Below, one piece after another: positions 50,378-54,846 of a DNA stretch of 64,000 bases. Every line of letters begins with the position of its first letter. Positions within the stretch are counted from its first letter, which is position 1. The DNA is from Sphaerisporangium sp. GTDB taxonomy: Bacteria > Actinomycetota > Actinomycetes > Streptosporangiales > Streptosporangiaceae. The position numbers and the translations under genes are program-made. The notes under the pieces were generated by a model, which was not told the origin of the DNA, made no database searches, and saw only the letters and a list, made by a program, of their open reading frames with translations. The DNA lies in NCBI GenBank assembly GCA_025964675.1, contig JAOPYI010000134.1, forward strand, positions 1 to 64,000. The letters run 5' to 3'.

Positions 50378-51802
50378 ATGTTCAGCTCCGCCGACGACGT
50401 CCTGAAGTTCATAAGGGACGAAGGGGTGCAGTTCGTCGATGTCAGGTTTACCGACCTGCCGGGCACGACGCACCACTTCACCTTCCCTGTGGAAAACTTC
50501 GGCGCCAGCGTCTTCACCGACGGTCTCATGTTCGATGGTTCCTCTATCCGAGGGTTCCAGGCCATTCACGAGTCGGACATGCTGCTGCTGCCCGACCCGT
50601 CGACGGCCGTGCTCGACCCGTTCCGTCAGCACAAGACGCTCATCATGAACTTCTTCGTGCACGACCCGCTGACCGGTGAGGCCTACAGCCGCGACCCGCG
50701 CAACGTCGCCCGCAAGGCTGAGGAGTACCTCAAGGGCACCGGCATCGCGGACACCGTATTCTTCGGCCCCGAGGCCGAGTTCTACATCTTCGACGATGTG
50801 CGCTTCGCGAGCAGCTCCAGCGAGGCCTACTACCACATCGACTCCATCGAGGGCGCCTGGAACACCGGCAAGGCCCAGGAGGGCGGCAACCTCGGGTACA
50901 AGCCCCGTTACAAGGGTGGCTACTTCCCGGTCCCGCCGATGGACCACTTCACCGACCTGCGCTCCGAGATGGTCCGCCGCCTGATCGACTCCGGCATCGA
51001 GACCGAGATGCAGCACCACGAGGTGGGCACCGCCGGCCAGGCCGAGATCGACTTCAGGTTCGGCACCCTGCTCAAGACCGCGGACAACCTGATGCTGTAC
51101 AAGTACATCATCAAGAACACCGCGGTGGAGTACGGCCACACGGTCACCTTCATGCCCAAGCCGCTCTTCGGGGACAACGGTTCCGGCATGCACTGCCACC
51201 AGTCGCTCTGGAAGGACGGCGAGCCGCTCTTCTACGACGAGGTGGGCTACGCAGGCCTGTCCGACATGGCGCGCTACTACATCGGGGGCCTGCTCAAGCA
51301 CGCGCCCGCGCTGCTGGCCTTCACCAACCCGACGGTGAACTCCTACCACCGCCTGGTGCCGGGGTACGAAGCGCCGGTCAACCTGGTCTATTCCCAGCGC
51401 AACCGCTCCGCCTGCATCCGGATCCCGATCACGGGGTCCAACCCCAAGGCCAAGCGCATCGAGTTCCGCGTGCCGGACCCGTCCTGCAACCCGTACTTCG
51501 CGTTCGCCGCGCAGCTCATGGCGGGCCTCGACGGCATCCGCAACAAGATCGAGCCGGCGCAGCCGGTCGACAAGGACCTGTACGAGCTTCCTCCCGAGGA
51601 GGCCGGTCAGGTTCCGCAGGTCCCGGGGTCGCTGCAGGAGGTCCTCATCGCCCTCGAGGCGGACCACGAGTTCCTTCTCGAAGGCGGCGTGTTCACGCCC
51701 GACCTGATCGAGACGTGGATCGCCTACAAGCGCGAGAACGAGATCGACCCGATCCGCCTCCGCCCCCACCCGCACGAGTTCGAGCTTTACTACGACGTGT
51801 GA
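50378..51802 (+). CDS. glnA: Glutamine synthetase type I (adenylylation-regulated)
   Basis: The 474-aa central ammonium-assimilating enzyme. It begins [20 protein letters not shown] and has the [15 protein letters not shown] and [20 protein letters not shown] active-site segments (metal and glutamate sites). The target tyrosine of adenylylation is in DLYELPPEE (residue ~402), so GlnE, encoded 6 kb downstream, can control it. ATG 50378 has GGGAGG upstream. The last eight codons plus stop are the left copy of the 28-bp repeat bounding a mobile element; the protein end HEFELYYDV is preserved. Confidence 0.97.
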
Positions 51803-51803
51803 T
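51776..51803 (+). repeat. Left attachment site (attL) inside glnA
   Basis: A 28-bp sequence starting GAGTTCGAGCTTTACTAC and ending at the T after the glnA TGA. It encodes the last eight residues EFELYYDV and the stop, and is identical to 54670-54697. The preceding and following bases differ between the copies. Confidence 0.88.
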
Positions 51804-51829
51804 GGTTCGCCGCGCGGTGACCTGCATGT

Positions 51830-52957
51830 TCATCGCGCGGCCCCCGTCTGGTTCTGCCTCTGTTCCGTCCGGGCGACGAGTACCGCATTGATCGCCGCGC
51901 GTGTCGACTCGTCGGAGTCCGGCCACAAGTGGCCGTAAGTGTCGAGCGTCGTCTTGGCACTCGCGTGCCGTAGGCGGGCCTGGACGACCTTGACATCAGC
52001 TCCGGAGGCGATCAGGAGCGACGCGAGGTAGTGCCGCAAGTCGTGGAATCGAAAGCCCGTGGGAAGGTCCTGAACCTTGCCGCGGGCTTTTCGCATTGCG
52101 CGCTCCAGCTTCCACGGTCCGACCTGAGCGCCGTCGTCGTCGGTCAGCAGGGTCTCGCGGCTGTGACCGGCCTGGACGTGCGCCGAAAGTTCGAGCGCCA
52201 GCGACGTCGGGATGGGGACCGGCATGCGGGACGTCTCGGTCTTGAGCGCCTCGGCGGGGTACTGCACGGTCGGGTGAACGATCCCCCGCATGAAGTCGAC
52301 GTCAGCGACGCGTAGGCCGCACACCTCCGCCATACGGAGGCCGACGAACGCGCCGAGCAGAATCGCCGCCCGGTACCGCTCGGGCATCGCGTCGTGCAGA
52401 GCCCACACCTGATCAGTCGTCGCCACGTACGGCCGCTGACTCCCCTGCCCCGGCGACGTCCTACGCGAGCACGGCGATCGAGGGATGATCCCGTCGTGCA
52501 CGGCATCGGACATGATCTGCGAAAGGCGACCATGCAGCGCGTAGACGTAGGAGTCAGCCAGGCCCGCCTCACGCAGCCGCGACGTCCACGAGCGGACGTG
52601 CGACCGACGCAGCGCCGACAGTTGCATCTCCCCGAGGTGCGCCGTGATCTGAGCGATGTGGACCTTGGCCTGACGGACCGACGACGCCCGCCGGGTGGCG
52701 TAGCCGGTGAGCCACGTCTCGCACCATTCCGACAGCGTGAGCCGAGCCGACCGGGGGTCGATGTAAGTCCCGCGTGACGCGTCGACCTCCTGAGCGGCGC
52801 CGTACCGATCGGCGTCGACCTTCTTGGCGAATGCCCTGGTCTTCTCCCTGCCGTCCGGGCCGATCCAGACTGCGAGCCACCGCTTGGCGTCCTTGTTGAT
52901 CGAGCCCAGCAGTCCGTCTCCGCCGCCGCAAGCCCGGCTGTGTCCGTTGGCGTCCAA
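51830..52957 (-). CDS. int: Tyrosine recombinase / phage-type integrase
   Basis: A 375-aa integrase. An N-terminal AP2/arm-binding domain ([20 protein letters not shown]), a core-binding SAM-like domain ([20 protein letters not shown]), and a C-terminal catalytic domain with all key residues: Arg in [29 protein letters not shown] (His-x-x-Arg), and [17 protein letters not shown] (His and the nucleophile Tyr). It therefore looks active. The 5' end is odd: the only upstream starts are TTG 52957 or a CTG further in (near LLGSIN) after GGAG, so a few N-terminal residues may have been lost or altered next to the transposase remnant. Confidence 0.9.
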
Positions 52958-53120
52958 TCACCGTGGAAGGCGCACAGGCGAAGGGACACGTCAAGCCGGG
53001 CTTGCACCTCTGTCGCCGGCCCGCTGCCGCTTCGCGGTGGGTCGACGGCAGACGGGATGGACAGCAGGTCTTCTGCGGGCCGTCATCTGCCGGCCTTTGG
53101 CTGCTTTCGGTTCTCGTTCT

Positions 53121-53354
53121 TATCCGCGCGGCCACTGGCAGATCGAGGCCCTGCACCACCTCCGCGACGTCAGCTACGGCGAAGACGCCTCCCAGATCCG
53201 CACCGGCAGCGGACCCCAGGCCATGGCCGCCCTGCGCAACCTGGCCATCGGCATCTTGAAAACGGCCGGGCACGCCAGCGTCGCCGCCGCCTGCAGGCAC
53301 CACGCCCGGGACGCCACCCGGACCCTCGAAACCCTCGGACTGCGCCCAGCATGA
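53121..53354 (+). pseudogene. ISAs1-type transposase, C-terminal remnant
   Basis: The frame from about 53121 reads [15 protein letters not shown], then [20 protein letters not shown] and [15 protein letters not shown] with an end [18 protein letters not shown]. This is the C-terminal end of ISAs1-family (DDE-type) transposases, beginning at the region of the catalytic glutamate. No matching N-terminal part precedes it; the upstream bases belong to the integrase 5' region. It marks an earlier insertion followed by deletion inside the element. Confidence 0.8.
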
Positions 53355-53470
53355 GCAAAGCGGACACGACGCGGCTACGCCGAGGCCCTGGAGGTTGCTG
53401 TACTCCTCTGCCGTACCGTCACCGCCTGGCCCTCGCAGACGGTGAAGTTGCCGACGTGGCCTGCGCTCGC

Positions 53471-54316
53471 TCAGGTGACCCGCGCGGCCACCAGGGTCTC
53501 GAAGGTATAGGGCCGCAGGCCATCGGTACGGCCGGCGAAGTACCGCTGCTGGAGGTCTGCACGTGCGGGGTGGTCCACGACCTTTAGCCCGCACCGGCTG
53601 ATCAGCCTCTCGATCTCGGATACCGGCCAGCCAGGCTGAAGAGGCTCGCCGGCAGAAGCCGCGATCGGCGTGTAGATACGGGCGAATTCCGTCCCCGCGT
53701 CGTCGAGCGCACAGTCCTCGGCCCGGTAGGAGAACACCACCTCAGACCCGGGAGCAGCCGCCGCGATCGTGCGCAACGTCGACTCGATCGCCTGTGCCGT
53801 CAGATAGGGGGCGACGCCCGTCCAGCAGAACATCGCCGGCTGCGCCCAGTCGAACCCAGCCGGGCCCAGAACATCCTGAACCGGTCCGGCCTCGAAATCA
53901 ACCGGCACGAATACCTGCGAGTCGCTGAGCGGCAGGCCGAGCTCCCTGACCCGCTCGAGCTTCCAGGCCTGGGAGGCAGGGTGATCAACCTCGAACACCG
54001 TCAGCGAGCCGAGCAGATCCGGCCGCCGCCACGCAAACGAGTCAAGCCCCGCGCCAAGAATCACGTACTGCGTGAAGGCACCAGCAGCCAGCCGGTCCTC
54101 GGCGTACCGGCTGCGGGTGCAGACAGCCGCACGGGACTCGCTGCGGACCGGGCCGGGGAACAGCGGATCGAACTGGTCTCGCAGCTGCTGCCATACCGGG
54201 CCGACAAGCACCAGGGCCAGCACATCGTCCAGTACCCACGGCGACGCCGTCTCCAGGCGAAACAATCCACGCGACACGGCCGCAAACATCGCCGTCCTGC
54301 TCGGCGCGCTTTCCAT
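53471..54316 (-). CDS. Class I SAM-dependent methyltransferase, leucine-carboxyl-methyltransferase (LCMT/TIGR00027) family
   Basis: A 281-aa methyltransferase of the actinobacterial LCM family (PF04072). Residues 77-110 hold FTQYVILGAGLDSFAWRRPDL, the SAM site with its LGAGLD motif, followed by TVFEVDHPASQAWKLERV, then MFCWTGVAPYLTAQAIESTL at the catalytic pocket. Members modify secondary metabolites or carboxyl groups; the target is unknown. A strong Shine-Dalgarno (GAGGAGG) precedes ATG 54316. It is the only obvious cargo gene of the mobile element. Confidence 0.85.
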   Translation of the reverse strand: MESAPSRTAMFAAVSRGLFRLETASPWVLDDVLALVLVGPVWQQLRDQFDPLFPGPVRSESRAAVCTRSRYAEDRLAAGAFTQYVILGAGLDSFAWRRPDLLGSLTVFEVDHPASQAWKLERVRELGLPLSDSQVFVPVDFEAGPVQDVLGPAGFDWAQPAMFCWTGVAPYLTAQAIESTLRTIAAAAPGSEVVFSYRAEDCALDDAGTEFARIYTPIAASAGEPLQPGWPVSEIERLISRCGLKVVDHPARADLQQRYFAGRTDGLRPYTFETLVAARVT

Positions 54317-54669
54317 GCATTCCTCCTCGCCGGCCAGAACCCAGCATGCTGGCCACGCCCGGCCACTCCGCGCACTTCACAGGATGCGCCTGAAGCGCCC
54401 TGACGGCCATAGCCAGATGGACGTCTGGCTATGTGACGATCTCTGCCGAGCATGATCCGCCCCAGAAGCCGGACGCAGCGGCCCAACCAGACCACGCAGC
54501 CTTGCCGCCAGATCAGGGGCACATTCAGGGCACATGTTGACGCCCCAGTTCCGTTTCAGTTCCGTTTGAGGCCGTAAAACGTCGGAAGTCGACGGGAGAC
54601 GTTGAGAGCTATTTTGCCTGGTCAGGCGCTACTCGGCGTGATCGGCGCAGGTGGAGAAGTCGCAGGCTG
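54317..54669. other. Non-coding right end of the mobile element
   Basis: The 353 bp between the methyltransferase start and the right repeat hold no convincing gene. They contain the phased 11-bp repeats at 54517-54567 and an AT-richer stretch up to attR, which fits a recombination or control region. Confidence 0.6.
54517..54567 (+). repeat. Two adjacent 11-bp-period direct repeats (candidate integrase arm sites)
   Basis: GGGCACAT occurs at 54517 and 54528 (period 11), and CAGTTCCGTTT occurs twice in tandem at 54546-54567 (period 11). The two repeat pairs lie 100-150 bp inside the right end of the element, in the place where tyrosine integrases bind arm-type sites on the DNA of integrative elements. 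Confidence 0.6.
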
Positions 54670-54697
54670 GAGTTCGAGCTTTACTACGACGTGTGAT
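54670..54697 (+). repeat. Right attachment site (attR)
   Basis: Exact 28-bp copy of 51776-51803. In the unoccupied chromosome, glnA would run straight into the bases that follow this copy, which include a terminator hairpin 68 bp on. Confidence 0.88.
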
Positions 54698-54765
54698 CCC
54701 GTGACACGGTGACCCTGCGGCAGTCGGCCGCTCGGGTCGCCTCGGGGCACCGGGCGTCTTGCGTG

Positions 54766-54809
54766 AGGCCGCCGGCCGCAGGTCCGATCGTGGACTTGGC
54801 CGGCGGCCT
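54766..54809 (+). terminator. Hairpin, probably the original glnA terminator
   Basis: AGGCCGCCGGCC pairs perfectly with GGCCGGCGGCCT (12 bp) around a 20-nt loop, followed by TTTC. It lies just after attR, so before integration it would have stood about 70 bp behind the glnA stop; now it is 2.9 kb away. It also faces the end of the 57-aa gene on the other strand. Confidence 0.75.
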
Positions 54810-54846
54810 TTCGCATGCGGGCACGGTCCGGGGCGCCCAGGGGGCT

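Follow-up and report, generated by a model that had tools for sequence, protein, structure and literature searches.

A clade of tyrosine integrases at the 3' end of glnA in Actinobacteria, with a candidate substitute terminator inside the integrase gene

Introduction

Actinomycete integrative and conjugative elements (AICEs) such as pSAM2 carry a tyrosine integrase at one end and restore the 3' end of their target from the element itself. Most AICEs with a tyrosine integrase use tRNA 3' ends, the pSLS subfamily being excepted (Ghinet et al., PMC3218068). Site-specific entry into a conserved housekeeping gene is likewise described for integrases with the protein-coding targets dusA, trmE and mutL. 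A further integrase target gene is icd. This report concerns an element at the 3' end of the glutamine synthetase gene, glnA, in a 64,000-nucleotide stretch of Sphaerisporangium sp. (contig JAOPYI010000134.1, positions 1 to 64,000; hereafter the window). As in pSAM2, a tyrosine integrase lies at one end and the 3' end of the target is restored by the element, whereas the target is protein-coding and neither a Rep nor a Tra gene was found among the open reading frames (ORFs) of the window element that were scanned, so that the window copy does not qualify as an AICE. From the integrases of dusA, trmE, mutL and icd it is set apart by its target gene and by a separate integrase clade, a distinction drawn without a comparison of identities. 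Very probably, the element entered the glnA 3' end by means of a tyrosine integrase (attP x attB) and the window copy is a relic, in which a hairpin within the integrase gene would now end glnA transcription.

A search of the open-access literature listed no paper with glnA named as an attachment site in its title or in the opening of its abstract; the search did not extend to supplements or to the most probable place for such a record (Mageeney et al. 2020, gkaa156), and absence from print is therefore unproven. The word glnA occurs zero times in the main text of PMC3218068, PMC9513070 and PMC12884075.

The glnA 3' end as an attachment site

In the window, glnA lies at 50378-51802 on the + strand (PF00120, 3.7e-138; PF03951), 50378 being the start chosen here in a frame open from 50300. 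The sequence GAGTTCGAGCTTTACTACGACGTGTGAT occurs twice in the window, both times on the + strand and with 0 mismatches, at 51776-51803 (left core copy, attL) and at 54670-54697 (right core copy, attR). A chance repeat was ruled out, since 100 shuffles gave an expectation of 0.00 for such a 28-bp repeat, also when 3 mismatches were tolerated. The left copy encodes the glnA C-terminus EFELYYDV, followed by the stop codon and one more base. An N-terminally truncated tyrosine integrase gene (51830-52957, - strand; PF00589, 2.5e-20; PF14659) converges on glnA. In its open frame of 375 codons, R208, K239, H305, R308, H331 and Y341 correspond to the catalytic residues expected from the tyrosine-recombinase motif (R, K, HxxR, H, Y). 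Identical core copies stand at both ends of the segment, one of them inside an intact target gene, and this is what marks an integrative element at glnA. The first-pass annotation had described the perfect repeat, its left copy as the last eight codons plus stop of glnA, the full set of catalytic residues and a hairpin near 54766; all of these were confirmed, the hairpin as a terminator-like structure native to glnA (54760-54815, + strand, z -5.5), and a distance of 27 bp between integrase and left copy was corrected to 26 bp. The gene itself is undamaged by the insertion, and what is displaced is its terminator. No tRNA was found in the window, which ruled out a tRNA or tmRNA as the target, and a known RNA family in the segment was ruled out by the lack of an Rfam match at the gathering score.

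The role of the glnA 3' end as the attachment site of a tyrosine integrase, proposed from the window alone in the first-pass annotation, is strongly supported: other, independent loci, the integrase tree, viral contigs with attP-like sites and one same-genus genome with an empty site all point to it. A look blind to integrases covered 59 relatives besides the window's genome, with a glnA match in 57 (genomes are given as G numbers and loci as L numbers). The DNA downstream of glnA was read in 56 regions from 55 genomes, the matches in G024 and G046 stopping short of the 3' end. Integrase homologues lay directly behind glnA in nine regions and were convergent in eight; seven of the nine were 41-93% identical, and those of G028 and G051 about 30%. 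The homologue of G051 (L061; 30% identical) spans 174-989 bp past glnA in the same orientation as glnA. A search for integrases at other actinomycete glnA ends, also proposed earlier, used 82 loci (L112-L193), of which 57 came from a scan of named genomes and 25 from a family search, and it was positive. Among the 62 loci with an identity of at least 50%, the glnA 3' end was on the C-terminal side of the integrase in 52 and at most 150 bp from the integrase match in 44 (38 distinct, given six duplicate contexts), compared with 0 of 20 within 150 bp among integrases less than 50% identical. The stop-to-stop distance between integrase and glnA was 21-39 bp in 21 of the 27 cases measured. The integrase sits directly at glnA in hosts such as Spongiactinospora, Kribbella, Blastococcus, Geodermatophilus, Klenkia, Prauserella, Streptomyces, Mycobacterium colombiense, Nocardia, Janibacter, Arsenicicoccus, Demequina and a metagenome-assembled genome of Acidimicrobiia. 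All three new matches at E<=1e-60 in a separate draw of 396 Actinomycetota genomes sit on glnA, and a plasmid search gave one record counted at 60-80% identity. At L260 (G131), L275 (G063), L139 and L163, an old remnant or integrase is separated from glnA by 0.8-2 kb of other DNA, as would be expected had the site been used again by a later insertion.

In an integrase tree built by a quick method with a midpoint root, 38 of 59 rows fall on one side of a branch with a Shimodaira-Hasegawa-like approximate likelihood ratio test (SH-aLRT) value of 99. This clade consists of 27 rows at glnA, three viral rows, three Nocardia copies without glnA, two rows with 1-2 kb between and three exceptions (L112, L116 and L161). 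A neighbouring group of 16 rows adjoins rnpB: RNase P RNA was detected in 10 of 10 loci scanned (L118, L119, L122, L124, L127, L133, L168, L170, L175 and L190), nine of them among those rows, and its 3' end is close to the integrase in the rnpB loci read. These sister integrases, 35-40% identical, apparently use the 3' end of the RNase P RNA gene; they differ from the glnA type in that their target is a structural RNA instead of a protein-coding gene, and that they show no hairpin excess near the gene 3' end, where they serve as controls in the codon-shuffle test described below.

Second copies of the glnA end were found in G047 (38 bp at 2.4 kb), Nonomuraea sp. G32 (22 bp at 3.9 kb), Prauserella halophila (29 bp, 97%, at 8.5 kb), Nocardia australiensis (62 bp at 7.9 kb), S. 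mexicanus (26 bp at 8.4 kb) and Demequina flava (27 bp at 9.0 kb). Seven left/right pairs, the window included, have 17 bp in common at -21 to -5 from the last stop base, which in the window is CGAGCTTTACTACGACG at 51781-51797. In the remaining of the 82 loci no second copy was seen apart from a 23-bp copy in L188, which says little because the flanks were mostly limited to 1.5 or 8 kb; apparent second copies of 12-13 bp in the survey downstream of glnA were treated as chance. Repeats of the glnA end with a distant or no detectable integrase occur in G028 (31 bp) and G041 (45 bp). The second copy in G041 (L106) lies about 3.65 kb past glnA with no detectable relative of this integrase, and may reflect another element type using glnA.

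On three viral contigs, L195, L196 and L197, a mimic of the glnA end stands beside the integrase with 2, 4 and 4 mismatches in 21, respectively, and no glnA was found in the stretches examined; these mimics are attP-like sites. L195 carries head genes, and the 21 kb of L197, which is part of a 103-kb record, include genes for a head decoration protein and an endolysin; Terminase_3 was not found in the three viral records, which says little. The best among the matches listed from an isolate phage collection has a 32% identical integrase. In Nocardia, the element is found on several contigs, some core-integrase junctions being without glnA, which suggests a tandem array or a circle. Genes for RepSA and FtsK/SpoIIIE are present in the element of Nocardia australiensis, the only member that qualifies as an AICE.

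Related genomes were also compared for an empty locus, as the first-pass annotation had proposed. In the same-genus genome G007, the conserved right flank begins about 130 bp after the glnA stop, corresponding to an empty or near-empty site; the other nine same-genus genomes are not clean, eight having about 1-8 kb of other DNA after glnA and G002 showing no right flank. The 3-17 bases to the right of the window attR align to native glnA 3' flanks of G005, G006, G007, G009 and G032, a modest but consistent indication of integration. Three observations weigh against glnA as the site: a clean empty site is seen in only one of 10 same-genus genomes; the clade members L112, L116 and L161 are not adjacent to glnA; and a right block with a glnA-like core adjoins icd, not glnA, in G032, which implies that this end can travel separately. 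In Leucobacter tardus (L161), a clade member with 53% identity, the integrase is behind a different protein gene, and a change of target is possible. The end of that gene carries letters resembling the glnA core.

The proposed course of events is as follows. An attP that mimics about the last eight glnA codons would recombine with attB, the glnA 3' end, via the tyrosine integrase, with strand exchange presumably inside the 17 bp common to the seven pairs, in which case the element would supply the last codons and the stop and leave glnA intact. The insertion puts 2.9 kb between glnA and its own terminator; the hairpin within the integrase gene would end glnA transcription in place of the displaced one, and in relatives the element would have decayed around this hairpin.

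A hairpin within the integrase gene

Because the insertion parts glnA from its terminator, a substitute was searched for. The candidate, which lies within the integrase gene but on the strand that is sense for glnA (52051-52091, + strand, z -5.2), is a hairpin with four T after its stem in the window. When the final 330 nt of the gene are compared with synonymous-codon shuffles (12 per gene), the best hairpin stands out in 24 integrases of the glnA type, with a mean z of -2.77 (window, -1.9); this is not so for an upstream stretch of the same genes (0.10) or for 19 control integrases (0.29). Near-duplicate rows of the glnA type (L137, L142, L144, L154, L159, L160 and L183) and clade members lacking glnA in the locus (such as L112, L116 and L161) were left out of this set. 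Hairpins near the 3' end beyond the expectation from codon usage are a newly observed feature of glnA-type integrase genes. Their position varies by lineage, and L114, L148 and L149 have instead a strong hairpin closer to the glnA stop. Across 15 related sequences, pairing holds in 94.8% of cells, and both partners have changed in four of the pairs, values reached by shuffles in 17 and 14 of 500, respectively; on its own, this covariation evidence is modest. Three points weigh against the hairpin part of the explanation: the terminator scan did not list this hairpin, six of the 24 integrases have no clear excess (z above -1.2; L114, at +1.8, L148, L149, L139, L197 and L138), and the control integrase L121 does have one (z -2.2).

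The hairpin pattern was found in 29 of 338 family genomes, and the reversed pattern in none among the matches listed. The hairpin lies 20-250 nt past the glnA stop in 28 of the 29 loci read; in G245, the exception, a further copy is at glnA, and G116 has a second copy with no glnA in the stretch read. Among 36 truncated integrase remnants from 15 genera (one per genome, two G132 pieces being merged), the hairpin is kept in 31, a count of non-independent cases since up to eight genomes come from one genus. Other 35-nt segments were retained on average in 14.3 remnants on the glnA side and in 2.1 beyond the hairpin, and 31 was reached in 0 of 20,000 circular shifts. This set omits full or nearly full copies (G000, G034, G065, G093, G226, G245 and G317), the contig-end G079, loci with no glnA in the stretch (L258, L259, L278, L279, L281, L283, L284 and L287) and weaker matches. 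On the glnA side, the alignments of 22 remnants are interrupted at 154-251 nt of the segment, and in nine cases the break is at 246-251, where the hairpin has its edge; these breakpoints are BLAST edges and not exact junctions. The remnants of G131, G196 and G229 have no hairpin, the alignments of G100 and G265, which are more diverged, stop inside it, and G233 and G355, matching over 54 nt at only 80%, could be unrelated terminators. The central G-G mismatch of the stem has become C-G in eight of 16 shortened loci, compared with one of 12 unshortened loci (there as G-C; Fisher p 0.024, genomes being taken as independent).

The remnant hairpin after glnA seems to be kept by selection and is probably a glnA transcription stop, and the integrase hairpin would be a replacement glnA terminator that was later domesticated. 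A slight preference is given here to a broader view, in which the clade docks at glnA and carries a substitute host terminator in synonymous sites of its 3' coding end, and in which Streptosporangiaceae have kept this piece of integrase DNA from the dead elements as a working glnA terminator, the stem being improved once the coding constraint was gone. A less favoured possibility is that the hairpin is real but not a terminator, and that it is an inverted repeat bound by the integrase or gives rise to a small RNA derived from the glnA 3' untranslated region (UTR). In several lineages the stem overlaps a repeated AGTCCGCA-like motif, recognized by eye as possible arm-type sites, and Enterobacteriaceae are reported to have a small RNA that comes from the glnA 3' UTR (PMC9731577). 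Against this, the Streptosporangiaceae stem is without the AGTCCGCA-like motif and outlasts the loss of the integrase, and in the window the stem has four T after it.

The element interior and further alternatives

The window integrase lacks about 30 N-terminal residues found in L112, L114 and L146, its similarity to relatives beginning at about 52895, and its N-terminal DNA-binding part is incomplete, though the SAM-like domain PF14659 is present. The DNA replacing the N-terminus begins near 52898. It belongs to a foreign insert (52896-53354, no strand assigned) with a decayed, presumably transposase-like tail in an ORF at 52824-53354 (+ strand) that has no Pfam match; 52920-53060 has a 90% copy at another place in the window's genome. 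An LCM-type methyltransferase gene (53471-54316, - strand; PF04072, 6.2e-36) is the cargo of a separate mobile cassette corresponding to 53355-54418. It is 99-100% identical in G003, G006, G019 and G032, which represent three genera, at loci away from glnA, which points to a very recent transfer. The methyltransferase was ruled out as the element core, being part of a separate cassette that occurs elsewhere in other genomes. The intact 2.9-kb element implied by the first-pass annotation was not borne out: the window copy is most likely a relic, because the integrase is truncated and the interior is largely a cassette that also occurs elsewhere. Other features are a small hairpin in the glnA-integrase gap (51812-51838, + strand, z -2.3) and putative arm-type repeats recognized by eye, on the left at 51849-51870 (+ strand) with 11-bp spacing, and on the right as two copies of CAGTTCCGTTT at 54546-54567 (+ strand).

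An origin of the right 28-bp copy other than integration in this lineage is improbable; the copy would then have come with the methyltransferase block, the right end of which would hold a captured glnA-type core. Such an origin is suggested by G032, where the block corresponding to window 52901-54693 recurs at 98.9% identity after a different truncated integrase and ends in GAGTTCGAGCTCTACTGCGACGTG beside icd. There the block, which has the glnA-like core as its right end, occupies 7667-9670 of L213; the gene beside it resembles that of isocitrate dehydrogenase and is taken to be icd. The window right copy, however, perfectly matches its own glnA, is followed by the displaced terminator and by the flank gene that follows glnA in G007, and continues into the 3-17 bases that align to the five native glnA flanks. 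Even if the right copy had come with the block, the integrase clade at glnA stands, as it rests on other loci. Mobility of the window element today is very unlikely: the cores are perfect, the catalytic residues are present and the frame of 375 codons is open, but the N-terminal residues common to L112, L114 and L146 are missing and the scan of three element ORFs found no Pfam excisionase. That the repeat is just a duplicated glnA end, and the integrase its neighbour by coincidence, has nothing beyond general possibility in its favour and can practically be dismissed; it is already contradicted by the fact that convergent members of a single integrase clade recur at glnA across many families, and by the glnA-end mimics on viral contigs.

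Biological significance

The gene glnA is central to nitrogen assimilation and is present in nearly all relatives searched, and its conserved 3' end is therefore a widespread docking site for phages, an AICE and smaller elements. Integration vectors that do not disrupt the gene could possibly be built on this site. Should the hairpin embedded in the integrase gene be a terminator, it would show how an element can lie downstream of an expressed gene and yet not be entered by its transcription, and the remnants would be a clear case of a host retaining dead integrase DNA as a regulatory part.

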